From the NCBI RefSeq assembly GCF_000763385.1, contig NZ_JQFA01000002.1, positions 1,612,001 through 1,676,000 of the forward strand: DNA of 64,000 nucleotides, written 5' to 3'. Below are positions 14,146 to 25,116 of the stretch, piece by piece. A program made the translations under genes and the position numbers. A model generated the notes under the pieces. That model was given only the letters and a program-made list of their open reading frames with translations, was not told the origin of the DNA and did no database searches. Position 1 is the first letter of the stretch, and each line of letters starts with the position of its first letter. The DNA is from Leptolyngbya sp. KIOST-1 (GTDB lineage Bacteria; Cyanobacteriota; Cyanobacteriia; Phormidesmidales; Phormidesmidaceae).

Positions 14146-15249
14146 CTACGACGATTGGAGTTTTTGCAGCAGCTCGTCAACAATCTGGGCGTCTTCACCG
14201 TTTTCTTGCTCCAGGAGTAACGTCTTTGCCCGTTGCAGCGCCGCGATCGCTTCTGCCCGGCGGCCCCGCGCCTCTAGCGCAACGCCTAGATGGTAGTAAC
14301 CAGGGGCGTGGTCGGGGGCCATCTCGAGCACCTCGCGATGGGCGACGATGGTCATCAGTACCTCTTGCTGCTCGAAGTAGAGATCGGCGATCGCATCGTG
14401 GGCAATCACCGAGTCGGGCTGAAGCCGGGCTGCCTGCTGATAGCTTTCTAGGGCGGCGTCTAGATTCCCCTGCTGCCAGAGCAGGTAGCCAATCTGCATG
14501 CGAATATCGGCGTTGCGGGGCTCTTCTGCCGCTGCCGCTCTAAACGCAGTTAGCGCCGAGGCCATATTCCCTGCTTTGAGGTGGGCAATGCCCAGGTTCA
14601 GCTGAATTCGGCTGGCCTGGGGGGCCAGGATAGCGGCTCGTTCTAAGGCGGCGATCGCCGCATCGGTATTGCCTTGCTGGAGCAAAATCAGGCCGATAGA
14701 TTCGGCGGCTTGTAGGTTGTTGGGGTCTTGCTGCAAAAGCTTGGTGTAGATCGCCAGAGCCTCTTCAAAGGCTGCGGTTTGAAACAGCGCCGCGCCTAGC
14801 CCCAGTTGAGCCGCCTGGTTATCGGGCTGCAATCGTAGGATTTGCCGGTAGGCATTGCCTGCCGCTTCATACTCCCCCAGGTTGCTATGGGCATGGGCCA
14901 AACCAAAGTAAACAGCCAGATTGTTAGGCTCTAGCCCAATAGCGGTTTGAAAAGCGGCGATCGCCGCTTGAAAATTGCCCTGGCGAGCCTGAAGGTAGCC
15001 AATGGCCGAGAAGATTTTGGCATTGTCCTCAGCTAGACCAGCCGCGTGCTGGTAACGAGCGAGCGCCTCAGCCAGATCACCGGCTTCGACTAGCTCTGCC
15101 CCCGACTCTAGCAAGTCGGCCAGTTCATCGCGCTGGGCCTGCTCGCTCAACGCCTGGCCGGGGCTGTGAGCACCCGCCGGAGTGGCCACTATTAGCAGCC
15201 CTCCCATCGCCATACCCGCCAGGCCCAATAGTTTACCTGTACCTCTCAA
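14146..15249 (-). CDS. Secreted TPR-repeat protein
   Basis: About 367 residues. The start is taken as TTG at 15247-15249 (protein begins LRGTGKLLGLAG, read as fMet) because AAGGAGA stands seven bases ahead and the previous gene stops 16 bases upstream. A signal peptide (residues 1-27, ending PAGA-HS) is followed by about nine tandem tetratricopeptide repeats with the canonical W/G-Y-F-A-P spacing, e.g. AIGYLQARQGNFQAAIAAF. TPR arrays act as protein-binding scaffolds. It ends the three-gene operon with the VKOR fusion and the UreH-like protein. Confidence 0.85.
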   Translation of the reverse strand: MRGTGKLLGLAGMAMGGLLIVATPAGAHSPGQALSEQAQRDELADLLESGAELVEAGDLAEALARYQHAAGLAEDNAKIFSAIGYLQARQGNFQAAIAAFQTAIGLEPNNLAVYFGLAHAHSNLGEYEAAGNAYRQILRLQPDNQAAQLGLGAALFQTAAFEEALAIYTKLLQQDPNNLQAAESIGLILLQQGNTDAAIAALERAAILAPQASRIQLNLGIAHLKAGNMASALTAFRAAAAEEPRNADIRMQIGYLLWQQGNLDAALESYQQAARLQPDSVIAHDAIADLYFEQQEVLMTIVAHREVLEMAPDHAPGYYHLGVALEARGRRAEAIAALQRAKTLLLEQENGEDAQIVDELLQKLQSS

Positions 15250-15265
15250 GGGATTCTCCTTCGCG

Positions 15266-16183
15266 CTAAATTGAATTTTGAAATGTGGTGGGGCCGGTAT
15301 AGCCCGAGAGCTGGGCAAGTTCCTCTAGGGTTTGTGTCCCCGACAGGCGCTCACCATTGATTTCCCAGGTGGGATAGCCGGTAATGCCAGCTTCCTGACA
15401 CTCGGGGGTTTGCTCTTGCCCCTCGGGGGTAGCGCACTCTACGTAGGGCATAACCTGGCTGGCTTCTTGGCCAAACAGCTGCTTTTGGTCGTGGCAGTGG
15501 GGGCACCACCAGGCTCCGTAGAAAATAGCACCAGTGTCGGCCAGGTGCTGAGCCAAAGCCATTTCAGCCGGGCCAGATTGGGTGGTGATGGCAGGCCCCA
15601 GCTGATCGCCCGAGCCCTCGGCAACTGGGTTGTTGACATTGGCATAGACGCCCAGGGTGCCCACCACCACCAGAAATGCTGTAATGCTGCCAATAAAGAA
15701 GGGTTGAGATAGATCAGACCAATTTTGGCCGATGAGGGCAAGCAAAAACAGGCTGGTAGAGAGGAGCGCTGAGCCGATGCAATAAAGACAGGCCGCCTGG
15801 ATTTCTGCGGTAAGCAGATACATGAGGTAGCCGCTAAAGACCATCATGGCGGTGCCGCCGATCAGCAGCAGGGGTTGGGTCAATCGGGTGAGTTTATCCC
15901 TGAGGTCTTTTTGCCCAGACCCATTGACCAGCAGGGGGGCGATCGCCATCACTGCCATACCCACGTAAGCCAAAAATCCAAACAGGGCCAGCGGCTGGCC
16001 AAACACCGTGGCATAGGGGCTAGAGAGCACGATGTCACAGCCCTTGGTAGGGCAGGCCGTGGCGCTACCCGTGAGCTTGTTGATCGTTAAGTAAGCGGTG
16101 ACGACAGCGCCAACCGCCGCTAACCCCGCCATCAGAGGGCGGGCATAGCGATGAATCCAGGGAGTTGATTGTTTACGCGGCAT
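15266..16183 (-). CDS. Vitamin K epoxide reductase-thioredoxin fusion (disulfide-forming oxidase)
   Basis: 305 residues. The N-terminal VKOR four-helix domain has the loop Cys pair (ACPTKGC) and the quinone-linked CxxC (ACLYCIGS). A fifth helix links to a periplasmic thioredoxin-like domain with CPHC (AWWCPHCHDQ) plus two more Cys (VECAT, PECQEAG). Such bacterial fusions (cyanobacterial LTO1-type) combine DsbB and DsbA functions, passing electrons from secreted protein thiols to quinone. The gene starts two bases after the UreH-like stop and is followed at 16 bases by the TPR gene: a clear operon. Confidence 0.92.
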   Translation of the reverse strand: MPRKQSTPWIHRYARPLMAGLAAVGAVVTAYLTINKLTGSATACPTKGCDIVLSSPYATVFGQPLALFGFLAYVGMAVMAIAPLLVNGSGQKDLRDKLTRLTQPLLLIGGTAMMVFSGYLMYLLTAEIQAACLYCIGSALLSTSLFLLALIGQNWSDLSQPFFIGSITAFLVVVGTLGVYANVNNPVAEGSGDQLGPAITTQSGPAEMALAQHLADTGAIFYGAWWCPHCHDQKQLFGQEASQVMPYVECATPEGQEQTPECQEAGITGYPTWEINGERLSGTQTLEELAQLSGYTGPTTFQNSI

Positions 16184-16185
16184 GA

Positions 16186-16848
16186 CTACACATCAATAAA
16201 AAACGTCAAAAAACCCAGAACTACGAGGACTAGACCTGTTGAGGTATGGCCACTGAGATTCCAGGTAGGGATTGCGGCAGACAACGATTTTGCCCGCTGC
16301 CAGCTCCAGTTCACGACCAACACCATGCCCAGTACCGTAACAACGGGGTACACCCCGGAGACCAGGGCAATGCCTTGCCATCCGAGCGCCCCTGCGGATA
16401 GGTAAAATGCACCAATTTCGAGGCACGGTGAGAAAAACATCGCGCTGGCAATGGCTACGACCGCTGCTACCTTACTGCGGCCAGAGGGGCTAACTGTGGC
16501 TACAACAGGGTGAGATTCGTCCGGAGAGCAGCATGGGACGCAGCGTTGACGCAGCGGTTTACTCAGGTAAACCAAGCCCAACCCAATCAGCACCGCCGGA
16601 GCGACCAGGTGCGTCACGATGTCGTAGTAGTCGGCAAACTGGTAGCCCAATAGCCCTACGGCCACCCCAATTAGGAGAGTGCTAACGGTGTGGGCCGAGC
16701 CGGTTAGGGCTGTAATCCATAGGGTTTCTTGCCGCGACCATCCTTCGGCCTTGCCCAACGCTACGAACGGTAGCCAGTGGCTGGGAATTAGCGGATGAAT
16801 CAGGCTCAGGGCTAAGGTGCCCAGCACGATTTGAAGGGAGGCAGACAT
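16186..16848 (-). CDS. UreH/NicO-like membrane protein (putative metal or thiol transporter)
   Basis: 220 residues from MSASLQIVLGTLALSLIHPL. The longer frame upstream overlaps the divergent peptide gene and is rejected. About six membrane segments, with His in the first (IHPLIPSHWLPFVAL) and in the second (GSAHTVSTLLIG), as in the NicO/UreH/HupE group. A cytoplasmic loop carries a Cys pair (RCVPCCSPDE). A further SPCLE motif lies in the next helix. Members handle Ni/Co or act in cytochrome maturation; the substrate is unknown here. It is first gene of the operon with VKOR-thioredoxin and faces the His-rich peptide. Confidence 0.65.
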   Translation of the reverse strand: MSASLQIVLGTLALSLIHPLIPSHWLPFVALGKAEGWSRQETLWITALTGSAHTVSTLLIGVAVGLLGYQFADYYDIVTHLVAPAVLIGLGLVYLSKPLRQRCVPCCSPDESHPVVATVSPSGRSKVAAVVAIASAMFFSPCLEIGAFYLSAGALGWQGIALVSGVYPVVTVLGMVLVVNWSWQRAKSLSAAIPTWNLSGHTSTGLVLVVLGFLTFFIDV

Positions 16849-16978
16849 AACTAGAAATGGGTCTCGGTCAGGACATGAACTAGGGTGACATCCTGTGACG
16901 AATTGCTCAGATGAGGGTTTTGCCCCCACCTGAAAGCTAAGATTAGAGTATAAATACTCAGCACATAAGGAGGATGCC

Positions 16979-17158
16979 ATGACACGGATTTCTATGGTTA
17001 GTGCAGTTGTCGCCGCTACGATCGCGATTTCTATGCAAGCTGTTGCATGGGGGCAGGGTAATCCTGCTGCGGTTAACTCCTCAGACATCGCTGATACTGT
17101 GATAGTCAACCACCACAACGGCACTCACGGCGGCCACCACCACGGCGGGTGCTGGTAA
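16979..17158 (+). CDS. Small secreted His-rich peptide
   Basis: 59 residues, MTRISMVSAVVAATIAISMQ and onward, with a strong AAGGAGG six bases before the ATG and a TATAAAT element at about 16950. A signal peptide ends near AVAWG. The mature part of about 35 residues ends VNHHNGTHGGHHHGGCW, with six His and one Cys, an obvious metal-binding tail. It is transcribed divergently from the UreH-like gene and convergently with the ZiaA-type ATPase. It likely buffers Zn, Ni or Cu in the periplasm (inference). Missed by ORF callers with a 60-residue cut-off. Confidence 0.75.
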   Translation: MTRISMVSAVVAATIAISMQAVAWGQGNPAAVNSSDIADTVIVNHHNGTHGGHHHGGCW

Positions 17159-17202
17159 CGGGGGGACGCTGCAATTCTCCGGAGAATGCTCATCTCAACC
17201 CG

Positions 17203-19188
17203 TTATCGAGGGTTCCGAATAATTCGACCCGCATTTAAGATGGCGAGCAGGGCAACGCCTACATCGGCAAACACGGCCTCCCAAAGGGTGGCCAAGCCGA
17301 TCGCCCCCAGGGCAATAAAGAGGGCTTTGACGGCCATGGCAAGACTGATGTTCTGCCAAACAATGCGCCGGGTTTTGTGGGCGATTTGAACGGCTTCGGC
17401 CACCTTTGAGGGCGCATCGGTCATAATCACCACGTCGGCGGTTTCGATCGCCGCATCGGAGCCCAGCCCGCCCATGGCAATGCCCACATCGGCCCGAGCA
17501 ATCACTGGGGCATCATTAATGCCGTCACCGACAAAAGCGACTTTTCCCTTGACTTGCTTGGCTTGATGGAGAAACGCCTCCAATGCCTCTACTTTGTCTT
17601 CCGGCAGCAGCTCGGCTCGATACTCGTCGAGGCCGAGCTTTTTGGCGATGCTGTCGGCCACTGACTGACTATCGCCAGTGAGCATGGCAGTGGCAATGCC
17701 CTGGGCATGGAGCGCCCGGATAGCTTCGACAGCATCCTCTTTCAGCTCATCGGCGATGATGATGCGGCCACTATATTCGCCATCCACGGCCAGGTGGGCC
17801 ACGGTGCCGTCTACCACACAGACATCGTGGGGAATGGCTTCGCGGTGCAGGAGCCGATCATTGCCCGCCAGCACCACCCGACCGTTCACCGTGGCACGAA
17901 TGCCGTGACCCGCAATTTCTTCGTAGTCTTGCACGCCGGAGGTATCGACGGTCTGTCCGTAGGCTTGACGAATCGACTGCGCCACCGGATGGTTAGACTG
18001 CGACTCGACCTGGACCGCTAACTCCAGTAGTTGGTGCTTCTTCAGGCCGTTGTGAGTCACCACATCCGTTACGCGAAAGTTGCCCTGGGTGAGGGTGCCG
18101 GTTTTGTCGAACACAACCGTTTTTACCTGGGCCAGGGTGTCTAAATAGGTGGAGCCTTTGACCAAAATGCCGCGTTTGGCGGCACCGCCCACCCCGCCAA
18201 AGTAGCCGAGGGGAATGCTGATCACTAACCCGCAGGGGCAGGAGATCACCAGCAGCACCAGGGCGCGATAGACCCACTGGGCCTGGGTAGCCCCCTCAAT
18301 GAACAAGGGCGGCAAAATCGCCACCGCCAGAGATAGAAACACCACTACAGGGGTGTAATACCGCGCAAAGCGGGTGATGAATTTTTCAGTGTCGGCTTTT
18401 TTGCTGCTGGCGTTTTCGACCAGTTCCAAAATTCTGGCGATCGACGACTCACCAAAGGGTTTGGTCACCCGTACCGTGAGCAGCCCCGACTGGTTGATCA
18501 TCCCGGCCAGCAAAGTTTCACCGGGGGCAACGGTGCGAGGCACCGATTCGCCCGTTAAAGCGGAGGTATCAACTAGGGATTTGCCCTCCAGAATGTCGCC
18601 ATCCAGGGGCACTTTTTCGCCGGGGCGCACCACAATCACATCCCCAACCCGCACGGTCTCGGGGGCAACGGTACGGATGTCGCCGTCAACACTGAGGTTA
18701 GCGGTGTCAGGCCGCACCTCTAGCAGGGCTTTGATCGAGCGGCGCGATCGCCCCACCGAGTAGCCCTGAAATAGTTCTCCCACCTGGAAGAACAGCATCA
18801 CGGCAACGGCTTCGGGAATTTCATGGATGGCGATCGCCCCCAGAGTTGCGATCGTCATCAGAAAGTTTTCGTCAAAGACGCGCCCCCGCAAAATGTTGCG
18901 CCCCGCCGTGGTCAGCACAGTCCAGCCGCTGATTAGATAAGCCGGAATCAGCACCGCGTATTCAGCGATGGCGAAGGAGGTGTTGTGCAGCGCCTCGTTG
19001 AAAATTAGCCCGATGAGGAAGAGAATGGTGGCGATCGCGATCGGCGTCAACTCTTGCCGCAGGCTGAAGTCACTTGAATCTTGGCTGTGGCCGTGGTCAG
19101 ACCCACAGCAGTCGTCATGGGCGTTTACCGCAGCTTTAGGGGTGGGGCCGGGGCTGTCGCAACAAGCCTGGGAGTGAGAGTCTGCCAT
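17203..19188 (-). CDS. ziaA: Zn/Cd/Pb-exporting P1B-type ATPase (ZiaA/CadA type)
   Basis: 661 residues. The N-terminus has Cys/His clusters (QACCDS, HDDCCGSDHGHS) instead of a ferredoxin-like HMA domain. Then come membrane helices, the actuator TGES (about 213-216), the CPC transport motif (317-319), the phosphorylation site DKTGT (361-365), NHPVA in the ATP-binding domain and GDGINDAP. CPC with this N-terminus marks the divalent-cation (P1B-2) group that exports Zn, Cd or Pb to the periplasm. A perfect SmtB-type operator lies 26-48 bases before the start, and a matching repressor gene lies at 26771-27175. The name ziaA is by class. Confidence 0.9.
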   Translation of the reverse strand: MADSHSQACCDSPGPTPKAAVNAHDDCCGSDHGHSQDSSDFSLRQELTPIAIATILFLIGLIFNEALHNTSFAIAEYAVLIPAYLISGWTVLTTAGRNILRGRVFDENFLMTIATLGAIAIHEIPEAVAVMLFFQVGELFQGYSVGRSRRSIKALLEVRPDTANLSVDGDIRTVAPETVRVGDVIVVRPGEKVPLDGDILEGKSLVDTSALTGESVPRTVAPGETLLAGMINQSGLLTVRVTKPFGESSIARILELVENASSKKADTEKFITRFARYYTPVVVFLSLAVAILPPLFIEGATQAQWVYRALVLLVISCPCGLVISIPLGYFGGVGGAAKRGILVKGSTYLDTLAQVKTVVFDKTGTLTQGNFRVTDVVTHNGLKKHQLLELAVQVESQSNHPVAQSIRQAYGQTVDTSGVQDYEEIAGHGIRATVNGRVVLAGNDRLLHREAIPHDVCVVDGTVAHLAVDGEYSGRIIIADELKEDAVEAIRALHAQGIATAMLTGDSQSVADSIAKKLGLDEYRAELLPEDKVEALEAFLHQAKQVKGKVAFVGDGINDAPVIARADVGIAMGGLGSDAAIETADVVIMTDAPSKVAEAVQIAHKTRRIVWQNISLAMAVKALFIALGAIGLATLWEAVFADVGVALLAILNAGRIIRNPR

Positions 19189-19214: not shown

Positions 19215-19236
19215 CATCTGAAAGACTATTCAGATG
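19215..19236. promoter_or_regulatory. SmtB/ArsR-type operator of the ziaA-like gene
   Basis: The perfect inverted repeat CATCTGAA-N6-TTCAGATG, flanked by AA on the left, matches the imperfect 12-2-12 operators bound by SmtB/ZiaR repressors (TGAA/TTCA core). It lies 27-48 bases upstream of the ATPase start on the minus strand. Confidence 0.8.
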
Positions 19237-21965: not shown

Positions 21966-23921
21966 TTAACTTCTCAACAGGCGCAAACCACTGAGGGTGA
22001 CGATAACAGTAGAGCCTTCATGGCCCAACACGCCCATTGGTAGGGTGATATGCCCGCTCAAGGTACCCGCGATGAGTACCCCAATCAGCCCAAGGGCAAA
22101 GCCGATGTTTTGTCGCACGATCGCCCGTGCCCGCCGCCCTAGGCCAATAGCGTGTTCTAGCTTTTCTAGGCGATCGGCCATGAGCACAATATCGGCGGTC
22201 TCTAGGGCCACATCGCTGCCCGCAGCGCCCATGGCAATGCCGACCGTGGCCAGAGCCAGGGCGGGGGCATCGTTAATGCCATCGCCGACCATCGCCACGC
22301 TGCCATACTGCTGCTGCAATTGCCGTAGAACCGTGACCTTATCTTCAGGCATTAAATCGGCATGCACCTGATCTACCCCCAGCTGTTGGGCCATACTGTG
22401 AGCCGTGCGGGCATTGTCACCCGTTAGCATTACCACTTGCTCAATGCCCAGGTGCTTAAGGCGGGCGATCGCCCTGGCCGCCTCTGGACGCACTCGGTCG
22501 GCCACCGCAATCAAGCCCAGCACTGGGCCGCCGTGGGCCACCCAAACCACGGTTTTGCCCTCTGCCTCCCACTGCTGGCTTTGCTTCGCTAGATGAGAGG
22601 AAACGGCCTGCCCACGAGCTTGAACCTGGGCACTAACAAAGGCTGCTTTACCTACCACCGCAGACCGCCCAGCTACCTCCCCTGTGATGCCCTGACCTAC
22701 CTGGGCTTGTCCGTTAATCGCCGCTGGCCAGGTCAGGGCTCGGCGCTGCGCCGCTTGCACAATCGCCGCACCAATGGGATGCTCCGAAAGGCTCTCGAGG
22801 GCGGCGGCCACGGTGAGCAGCTCATCCGGATCGTCAGCCAGCACATTCACCACGTCGAGCTGTCCGGTCGTGAGGGTGCCGGTTTTGTCAAAGGCGATCG
22901 CTCTGATTTGGCCCATCTGCTCCAGCTGCGCCCCATTTTTGAATAAAATGCCCTGTCGCGCCCCGTTAGCAATACCAGAGAGCAGGGTCGGCATGATTGA
23001 GGCCATCAGCGCACAGGGGGAGGCCACGACCAAAAACACCAGGGCGCGGTAGATTGTTTCCTCCCAGCCCCAGCCCAGCAGCAGGGGCGGCAGCGTGGAC
23101 AGCAAAACGCCCACCGTCACAATCACCTGGGCGTAGCGACGCTCAAACCGCTCCATAAATTTTTGGGAGGGAGGCGCTTCGGTTTGGGCCTGCTGCACTA
23201 GGCGAATCACGCGTTGAATCAAGCTGCTTTCCGGCGGCTGGTGGAGCGTTAGGCGCAGCGCACCGTAGCCGTTGAGGGTGCCCGCCAAAACCTCGTCGCC
23301 CACGGTTTTCTCTACAGGAATAGATTCCCCCGTAATCGACGCCTGGTTCACCGTGCTGAAGCCTTCGGCCACGACCCCATCGGTAGGCACCAGTTCCCCC
23401 GGTTTGACCAAAACCTGATCGCCGACTTGCAGCGCTGAGATTGGCATGATCTGCTCTTGCCCCTGGCGAATCACCGTTGCGGTGTCAGCCGTCAGGCTCA
23501 TTAACCCTTGAATATTTCGCCCCGTTCGTCCCATGGCATAGCCCTCTAGGGCACCACTAATGGCAAAAATCAGAATCAGGACGGCCCCATCGACAATTAA
23601 GTTGTACTCCCGCTGCCACAGACCCAGGCTGGCGGCCCCGAGGGCAGCGATAATCATTAGCAGGTCTACATCCAGCTCTTTTTCCTGCACCAGCGTGGTC
23701 AAGCCCTCACGGGCGCTCTCAAATCCACCAATGACGTAGGCCGCCGCTAGAAACAGCAGGGCACCCCCCACCCAGCCCAGGGCCAGGGTTTGCCAGCCCA
23801 ACCCCACTAAAACCGCACAGGCGATCGCCGCCACCGCCTCGGGGTGCTCGTCAAACAAACCTTTGCACAGGTGGCCGAATCGAGACTTCGACAGAGCATT
23901 CAACGGGGCAGTAGACACCAT
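21966..23921 (-). CDS. coaT: Cobalt-exporting P1B-4 ATPase
   Basis: 651 residues. No N-terminal metal-binding domain. It has the actuator TGES (197-200), the transport motif SPC (301-303) rather than CPC, DKTGT (345-349), SEHPIG, GDGINDAP and the C-terminal helix motif HEGSTVIVTLSGLRLL. SPC plus HEGST defines the P1B-4 (CoaT) subgroup that exports cobalt and sometimes zinc. It is divergent from the CoaR regulator gene, with a long palindromic operator between them, exactly as in Synechocystis coaR-coaT. Confidence 0.93.
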   Translation of the reverse strand: MVSTAPLNALSKSRFGHLCKGLFDEHPEAVAAIACAVLVGLGWQTLALGWVGGALLFLAAAYVIGGFESAREGLTTLVQEKELDVDLLMIIAALGAASLGLWQREYNLIVDGAVLILIFAISGALEGYAMGRTGRNIQGLMSLTADTATVIRQGQEQIMPISALQVGDQVLVKPGELVPTDGVVAEGFSTVNQASITGESIPVEKTVGDEVLAGTLNGYGALRLTLHQPPESSLIQRVIRLVQQAQTEAPPSQKFMERFERRYAQVIVTVGVLLSTLPPLLLGWGWEETIYRALVFLVVASPCALMASIMPTLLSGIANGARQGILFKNGAQLEQMGQIRAIAFDKTGTLTTGQLDVVNVLADDPDELLTVAAALESLSEHPIGAAIVQAAQRRALTWPAAINGQAQVGQGITGEVAGRSAVVGKAAFVSAQVQARGQAVSSHLAKQSQQWEAEGKTVVWVAHGGPVLGLIAVADRVRPEAARAIARLKHLGIEQVVMLTGDNARTAHSMAQQLGVDQVHADLMPEDKVTVLRQLQQQYGSVAMVGDGINDAPALALATVGIAMGAAGSDVALETADIVLMADRLEKLEHAIGLGRRARAIVRQNIGFALGLIGVLIAGTLSGHITLPMGVLGHEGSTVIVTLSGLRLLRS

Positions 23922-23954
23922 AGGCCAACCTGAGAAATCTTCACTCTGTCAGGC

Positions 23955-23988
23955 TAAACCTTGACATTGACACCAATGTCAAGGTTTA
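23955..23988. promoter_or_regulatory. CoaR operator / coaT promoter
   Basis: A perfect 15-4-15 inverted repeat, TAAACCTTGACATTG / CAATGTCAAGGTTTA. TTGACA inside it can serve as -35 element. A MerR-family activator would bind and untwist the over-long spacer. It sits 12 bases before the coaR start and 34 before coaT. Confidence 0.85.
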
Positions 23989-24003
23989 GCGTAAGCTAAG
24001 CCT

Positions 24004-25116
24004 ATGACGACTGAATTTCTGACCATCAAAGAACTCACTGATGCGGTAGGCGGAGGCGTCACCCCTCGCATGGTGCGGCACTATCACACCCTGGGGTTAC
24101 TGCCTCCCGTTCCCCGCTCAGAGAGCAACTACCGACTTTACACCCAGCGGGATATACAGCGATTACAGCGAGTGATAGCGCTTAAACAGCAGGGCTTTCA
24201 GCTCTCTCACATTGGGCAAATTCTAGAGAGTGACTCTGAAGCCACCGCAGACGCGAGCCTAATGACCCAGCTACAGCAGCAGTATCAGGCTGTGATGCAG
24301 CAGATTGCCCGCCTGCGCCATACCGCTTCGGCCCTGGAGGGGCTGCTGGGGCGCGATCTAGATTGTCAACGCACCCAGGCTCAAGCTCTGGCTCAGCTCA
24401 AGCAGCTCGATGTAGACACCCAGGCGGGTCTAAGCCAGATCGATCAGCTCTGGGCTAGCCTCGATGCCGAAACCACCGCCCACCCCGAAGCCTTTCAGGA
24501 ATCGCTTCAGCGCCTGCTGCCTAACCTCTCGCACTATTCTGAAATTACCCAGCATTTGATCCAACAGCTGGTGCTGGCCTGCGGTGATGTGAGCTTAGTT
24601 AACCTCATCCAAATTAGTGGCGATGCGATCGCCGCAGCACGCACCGCTCTCAGCAGTGGGTGTGAGATCATTACCGATGTGCCTGTGGTAGCCACGGCGA
24701 TTGATCAAACTCGGCTAGCCGCTTTGGGCTGTCCGGTTACAACCTTGATTGACGATCCTCACATTACCGCCGCCAACGAGGCTGAACAGGCTTTTTGGCT
24801 CCAGAAACGCTGGCAGCAACCATTACATGACTGTCTATCCGGTAGTGTGCTGGTCATTGGCTATGCCCCTTCAGTGCTGCTCACCGTCTGTCAGTTAATA
24901 GAGCAACAGCGTTTTCAACCGGCTCTGGTAATTGGTATGCCTATTGGCTTTAATCACGCCCCTGCTGCCAAGCGGCGACTGATGGCAACATCCATCCCTT
25001 ACATTACGATTCAAGGAAGCCTTGGCGGCGGGCTCTTGGCTGCTGTAACTTTGAACGCCTTAATCGAAACACTGCTTGAGAAGCCAGATTGCCACTGCTA
25101 TCTGACTCGGCCCTAA
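24004..25116 (+). CDS. coaR: MerR-family cobalt regulator with precorrin isomerase-like sensor domain
   Basis: 370 residues. The N-terminal MerR winged helix is TPRMVRHYHTLGLLPP...NYRLYTQRDIQRL. A long helical linker follows, then from about residue 190 a domain resembling precorrin-8X methylmutase (CobH/CbiC): LSSGCEIITDVPVVATAI, VLVIGYAPSVLLTV, PALVIGMPIGFNHA. The C-terminus carries Cys-His-Cys (363-365), reported as needed for cobalt sensing in Synechocystis CoaR. It activates the divergent coaT and possibly responds to B12 intermediates. Confidence 0.95.
   Translation: MTTEFLTIKELTDAVGGGVTPRMVRHYHTLGLLPPVPRSESNYRLYTQRDIQRLQRVIALKQQGFQLSHIGQILESDSEATADASLMTQLQQQYQAVMQQIARLRHTASALEGLLGRDLDCQRTQAQALAQLKQLDVDTQAGLSQIDQLWASLDAETTAHPEAFQESLQRLLPNLSHYSEITQHLIQQLVLACGDVSLVNLIQISGDAIAAARTALSSGCEIITDVPVVATAIDQTRLAALGCPVTTLIDDPHITAANEAEQAFWLQKRWQQPLHDCLSGSVLVIGYAPSVLLTVCQLIEQQRFQPALVIGMPIGFNHAPAAKRRLMATSIPYITIQGSLGGGLLAAVTLNALIETLLEKPDCHCYLTRP

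Follow-up and report, generated by a model that had tools for sequence, protein, structure and literature searches.

In the 64,000-nucleotide stretch of Leptolyngbya sp. KIOST-1 DNA analysed here (the window), a small open reading frame for a His-rich peptide lies beside a heavy-metal ATPase gene and on the opposite strand. This layout raises the question of whether the frame is a real gene and, if so, whether its product handles metal. The features concerned are as follows.

14146..15318, minus strand: TPR protein, which would follow in the putative operon; its start codon is uncertain
15266..16183, minus strand: VKOR-thioredoxin (VKOR-Trx) fusion
16186..16848, minus strand: UreH-like protein of 220 aa, divergent from the peptide gene (ATGs 130 bp apart)
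16905..16937, either strand: imperfect inverted repeat (CTCAGATG...CACCTGA) between the peptide and UreH-like genes
16938..16959, plus strand: 22-bp element TAAGATTAGAGTATAAATACTC (consensus TAGGATNAGAGTATAAATACTC, up to 2 mismatches)
16946..16959, either strand: near-palindrome GAGTATAAATACTC, the core of the 22-bp element
16967..16973, plus strand: ribosome-binding site AAGGAGG, 5 nt before the peptide ATG; similar sites in relatives
16979..17158, plus strand: gene for the His-rich, exported-looking mini-protein (ATG ORF, 59 aa plus stop)
17203..19188, minus strand: P1B-type heavy-metal ATPase (TIGR01512/01525; the sequence shows a CPC motif)
19215..19236, either strand: CATCTGAAAGACTATTCAGATG before the ATPase, a predicted SmtB/ZiaR-like operator

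The peptide gene and its neighbours

Translation of the ORF gave MTRISMVSAVVAATIAISMQAVAWGQGNPAAVNSSDIADTVIVNHHNGTHGGHHHGGCW. The last 17 residues (VNHHNGTHGGHHHGGCW) contain six His and one Cys, and a simple hydropathy rule together with inspection by eye indicated a Sec-signal-like N-terminus with an Arg in the n-region, a hydrophobic core, and A-V-A at residues 21-23. Both features bear out the exported-looking peptide with a His/Cys tail that a sequence-only reading of this DNA had proposed, and the perfect ribosome site that it had claimed was confirmed as AAGGAGG. Neither Pfam nor NCBIfam assigned the peptide to a family; the latter gave only a sub-threshold match to Spy (12.4 bits where 174 are required, E 0.14). 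A PDB profile search with the peptide returned two chance-level matches only (E 0.27 and 1.7), Rfam had no match within the window, and a scan of 16700-17400 for sigma-70 promoters and terminators found no match.

When the window and 34 loci (35 sequences) were scanned for small signal-like ORFs with a ribosome site, 10 of the 32 ORFs passed the His filter and nine of these ten were the window peptide or its homologues; this rate is biased, because several loci had been chosen for holding a homologue and L074 and L129 carry the same gene. The real evidence for the gene is its conservation, its dN/dS, and the upstream element common to its homologues, which are described below.

The ATPase gene is convergent with the peptide gene, their stops being 44 bp apart, and its product is predicted to be of the Zn/Cd type. 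The N-terminus of this ATPase is Cys/His-rich (ACCD...DDCCGSDHGHS), and no heavy-metal-associated (HMA) domain was matched there in Pfam. On the other side, the UreH-like protein contains a Cys/His-rich stretch, RQRCVPCCSPDESHPV. Its name was given by eye in the sequence-only reading, since the 220-aa protein had no match in Pfam or NCBIfam; the flanking genes were otherwise as described there. The position that had been given, between a UreH-VKOR operon and a zinc ATPase, is also correct, although the ATPase and the UreH-VKOR genes look like one operon.

Another pair of genes was observed at 21966-25116 of the window, where the minus strand encodes an SPC-motif P1B ATPase and the plus strand, divergently, a MerR + CbiC-domain regulator whose C-terminus reads ...CHCYLTRP, with the inverted repeat AACCTTGACATTGACACCAATGTCAAGGTT between the two. 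We take this pair to be CoaT/CoaR-like and presumably concerned with cobalt.

Homologues and selection

A protein search of 26 genomes of the genus gave matches in 21 at E ≤ 1, and seven of these genomes, the window's own included, were convincing; the weak matches (E ~0.01 to 1) were left out. Identity to the window peptide was 100% in G004, 81% in G005 and G015, 72% in G022 and G003, and 51% in G016. Searching the 63 genomes of the family with a profile added G027, G030, and G041, so that 10 of 15 matching genomes were kept as convincing (E < 1e-15) and five weak ones (E 0.01-0.1) were left out. Class-wide (388 genomes), 16 genomes matched at E ≤ 0.01, of which 11 were convincing (E < 1e-20), with G040, G067, G089, G142, and G356 left out. 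The class-wide addition was G370, which comes from another GTDB family than the rest, one represented by a single genome; a search of 291 genomes of its order gave G370 itself and two weak matches (G442 and G455), and one of the three was kept. Plasmids searched by tblastn with two homologues gave no match.

Nine columns were invariant among eight distinct sequences from two GTDB families (A23, N28, T40, V41, H45, G48, H50, G56, and C58 in window numbering), the last five of which lie in the tail. The number of tail His is 4-6 in relatives, and the tail ends in GCW in most homologues, GCCW with two adjacent Cys in G027, GCY in G041, and GC in G370, which has no final aromatic residue. A lack of conservation in the His tail had been set beforehand as one of the points on which the proposal could fail, and the His/Gly tail is kept in the homologues. 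Among nine coding sequences, dN/dS was 0.12-0.31 wherever a pair reached a pS of 0.56 or more, many such pairs being near saturation, and 0.54-0.65 in close pairs, with few changes each. The region codes for a protein that is kept by purifying selection.

Two further traces adjoin the ATPase and lack the upstream element, namely the tail-like remnant FHHGGHRSHGGCW in G040 and FHHGGHGGCW, in a frame with stops, in G045; neither was counted as a member. Literature searches on small His-rich proteins of cyanobacteria, zinc and histidine in Nodosilinea, ZiaR/SmtB/CoaR, and bufferins turned up nothing recognisable as this peptide, which is no proof of its absence from print. The homologues form a small family that has no model in Pfam or NCBIfam and probably a function of a known type; its place in the genome is unusual and its regulatory signature clean.

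Upstream element and control of the pump

The 22-bp element precedes the peptide gene in 11/11 peptide-bearing genomes. With up to 2 mismatches, it was found in 13 of the 388 genomes, that is, at the peptide gene in 11 and additionally in G085 and G160, and a reversed-pattern control gave one match. The sequence TAGGAT-N-AGAGTATAAATACTC, directly ahead of the ribosome site, is common to the homologues with at most 2 differences. A stricter composite of AGTATAAATACTYA, ribosome site, and ATG occurred in 10 of the 388 genomes, nine times at the peptide gene; this pattern misses the copies of G030 and G041, and the tenth match, in G168, belongs to a dissimilar gene. The G168 and G160 matches look like chance. 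In G085 (L178, ~1507, reverse strand), the element stands with 2 mismatches ahead of an open frame that is unrelated and contains a DFDGP motif; this frame may be another gene controlled by the same regulator, or the match may be due to chance.

The near-palindrome could serve as an operator, as a -10 region, or as both. G030, G041, and G370 do not retain its full symmetry, so the symmetry itself may not be selected. The window's genome contains one exact GAGTATAAATACTC site, the peptide's own, and four one-mismatch sites, none of which was seen by eye ahead of a comparable gene among the listed ORFs of at least 60 aa. A literature match to its letters, in work on T4 late promoters, was taken as coincidence. 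The conserved palindrome provides a handle for finding the regulator.

Inspection by eye showed the inverted repeat between the peptide and UreH-like genes in G000/G004, G005, G015, and G022, both of its arms differing in places. The minus-strand RNA folded at -20.5 (L123), -23.5 (L124), -14.8 (L126), and -11.2 (L128) kcal/mol and the plus strand at -10.7 to -15.3 kcal/mol, all as raw, uncalibrated energies; minus-strand pairing was strong in the three repeats folded and weak in G016. The repeat was considered as a second SmtB-type site and dropped, its half-sites being oppositely oriented and the window gap containing no TGAA-N4-8-TTCA.

For the pump itself, the site CATCTGAAAGACTATTCAGATG upstream of the ATPase is one that we label SmtB/ZiaR-like. 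TGAA-N4-8-TTCA was found upstream of the ATPase in 19 of 26 loci (the window and 25 cyanobacterial loci among 80 ATPase-relative loci) and not in the other 7, and in G016 and G022 ArsR-family regulators are encoded a few kb or less from the ATPase, an arrangement that resembles SmtB/ZiaR control. The 130-bp peptide/UreH gap of the window has no SmtB-like site, and the peptide is therefore probably under different control.

Layout of the locus across genomes

In nine of the 11 genomes, the peptide gene adjoins the UreH-like gene and has the ATPase on its other side. G041 and G370 have other settings: the G041 gene is beside a SulP-like gene and that of G370 between cysK-like and ygfZ-like genes (names by eye), and no relative of either window ATPase was found near these copies (16 and 14 kb regions). 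A radical-SAM-like gene (by eye; CNLDCPYC motif) is convergent to the G041 copy (L131 8375-10268), and a small gene adjoins.

Within the nine genomes, a further gene separates the ATPase from the peptide gene in G016, G027, and G030. It is of the Na/Ca-exchanger type in G016 and G030 (Pfam was run on the G030 copy), appearing as one ORF in G030 and as two ORFs in G016 (L128 8196-9224). In G027 (L130 7296-7994), it encodes a Met/His/Cys-rich, exported-looking protein with GMMGGDHMMCGD repeats.

A peptide-profile scan of the 80 loci around the closest ATPase relatives, many of which are not cyanobacterial, found the peptide in only three, all already-known homologues. Among the 63 family genomes, the UreH-like protein (E ≤ 1e-30) occurs in 11 and the peptide in 10; nine have both, G024 and G025 have UreH only, and G041 has the peptide only. 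Fisher's test of this distribution gave p 2e-8, a value that is too small because one linked locus is inherited.

In G024 and G025, the ATPase is followed head-to-tail on one strand by UreH, VKOR, and TPR, without the peptide gene and with only 32 and 37 bp between the ATPase and UreH-like genes. We infer that the cluster forms one operon, and, given that its four genes run head-to-tail in these two peptide-less relatives, the peptide gene probably lies antisense inside it. The sequence-only reading had described neither the antisense position of the peptide gene within the ATPase-UreH-VKOR-TPR cluster nor its own conserved upstream palindrome. A tree of six concatenated proteins from 11 genomes placed G024 beside G000/G004 and G025 beside G005/G015, with the peptide-bearing G016, G030, and G027 outside; from these positions, two independent losses of the peptide are the simplest history.

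Discussion

We consider it somewhat probable (about 0.6) that the peptide is a secreted, disordered His/Cys metal buffer, zinc being favoured through the neighbouring genes only. The peptide would be exported by Sec and its signal cleaved near residue 23-25, giving a mature chain of ~34-36 residues, mostly unstructured. Its tail HHNGTHGGHHHGGCW would loosely chelate a divalent metal, most likely Zn(II), with six His imidazoles and one Cys thiol. The P1B ATPase would move metal out of the cytoplasm, and the peptide would lower free metal in the periplasm. Judging from its own upstream palindrome and its antisense position between the ATPase and UreH-like genes, the expression of the peptide is probably set independently of the pump operon and possibly opposed to it. 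An AlphaFold model of the peptide was of low confidence (mean pLDDT 58.7, ~50 over the tail), which is consistent with a disordered tail.

The metal-buffer reading is the simplest one for a short, signal-bearing-looking chain with His-Gly spacing and a terminal Cys. It is consistent with the conserved tail, the dN/dS values, the ATPase context in 9/11 genomes, and the metal-sensor-type operator of the pump in 19/26 loci, and also with the Met/His/Cys-rich protein in the same gap in G027 and the CoaR/CoaT-like pair in the window. Against it stand the copies of G041 and G370 away from the ATPase, the occurrence of the peptide in 3/80 ATPase-relative loci and 7/26 genus genomes, the ATPase-UreH-VKOR-TPR cluster kept in the peptide-less G024 and G025, and the absence of an SmtB-like site ahead of the peptide; moreover, His-rich tails can have non-metal roles, and the final aromatic residue is missing in G370. 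Zinc is a plausible metal in view of the neighbouring ATPase, and nickel in view of the provisional UreH name. The original interpretation is supported in part: the gene is real and conserved, its product looks exported, and a P-type ATPase of predicted Zn/Cd type is encoded next to it, while buffering of zinc or nickel by the peptide is plausible.

The picture in its entirety, namely a new cyanobacterial family of periplasmic His/Cys buffers, a regulator binding GAGTATAAATACTC, a noncontiguous operon, and mutual antagonism between the buffer and a Zn pump, is doubtful. If true, the buffer would be made at low metal load and the pump at high load. The family itself adds to what may be metal handling in cyanobacteria, whose cytoplasmic metal sensing has received more study than buffering in the periplasm. 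The antisense position in a metal-efflux cluster, together with two peptide-less relatives, makes reciprocal buffer/pump regulation directly testable.

A possible but tentative alternative is that the peptide mRNA, as antisense RNA or through transcriptional interference, tunes the ATPase-UreH-VKOR-TPR genes reciprocally, the peptide being secondary. The gene does interrupt from the other strand an apparent operon whose ATPase and UreH-like genes are adjacent on the same strand in G024 and G025, a layout that fits the noncontiguous operon as defined in PMC7154746. However, selection at the protein level shows that the peptide has importance of its own. G041 and G370, moreover, have kept the gene together with its element although neither the ATPase nor the UreH-like gene is near it, and the 130-bp gap may hold a separate promoter for UreH.

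An unlikely explanation is that the VKOR-thioredoxin oxidises the C-terminal Cys to a disulfide dimer or adduct, the tail having a role in redox or folding and not in metal buffering. The Cys near the C-terminus is invariant, and tblastn located VKOR-Trx in each of the nine clusters of peptide-bearing genomes (7/9 with a separate ORF for it). On the other hand, no VKOR was seen next to the G041 and G370 copies, it is kept in the peptide-less G024 and G025, and G027 has two adjacent Cys.

Still less probable is a secreted signal, antimicrobial, or modified (RiPP) peptide. Its small size, exported look, Gly/His/Cys-rich composition, and patchy distribution with two inferred losses would suit such a role, as would the radical-SAM-like gene adjoining the G041 copy; yet this neighbour was seen only in G041, where it is convergent, and MNIO (PF05114), the one RiPP enzyme searched for, was found in none of the 11 peptide-bearing genomes. 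Finally, a chance ORF or non-coding region, suggested by the shortness of the frame and by the failure to find a Pfam/NCBIfam family or a consensus sigma-70 promoter, is hardly credible, because two GTDB families contain homologues, dN/dS is far below 1, and an upstream element is common to these genes.

Comparison with known systems

As a metal buffer, the peptide would have several counterparts. It is like the bufferins (Buf1/DUF2282 and Buf2) in its predicted Sec signal, small size, Cys content, and proposed metal buffering; bufferins are MNIO-modified copper buffers (PMC12452194). Membership was dropped, since the search for MNIO that matched 2 of 14 control genomes found 0/11 in the peptide-bearing ones and Pfam matched no DUF2282, the Buf1 precursor domain, in the window peptide.

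In gene order, the locus is like menE-menC-MW1733-ytkD-MW1731 of Staphylococcus aureus, where an opposite-strand gene is interspersed among same-strand genes (PMC7154746). Correspondingly, in gene layout, the ATPase and UreH-like genes that are adjacent in G024 and G025 are split by the peptide gene in the window. If both strands are transcribed across this region, the antisense position could set the two transcripts against each other, as in noncontiguous operons (PMC7154746).

The small, His-rich, nickel-binding Hpn and Hpn-like proteins of Helicobacter share the idea of binding metal. Hpn is cytoplasmic and far richer in His than the window peptide, and in NCBIfam, where the comparison was made, no model of a His-rich nickel protein matched the peptide.

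A further likeness is to SilE, which is longer than the window peptide and with which PcoE is grouped as a periplasmic metal sponge. SilE is exported, disordered, and rich in metal ligands; it acts as a sponge in Ag/Cu resistance, and its operon also encodes a P-type metal ATPase (PMC5008109). The peptide is likewise ligand-rich and encoded beside such an ATPase gene, and it may be exported and disordered as well. It differs in having His/Gly/Cys where SilE has His/Met motifs and in lying antisense within its cluster. The search for homology covered Pfam, NCBIfam, and PDB and found no curated family at threshold and no solved structure above chance level. Detected as a member of none of these families, the peptide would nevertheless work like SilE and, in concept, like Hpn and the bufferins.
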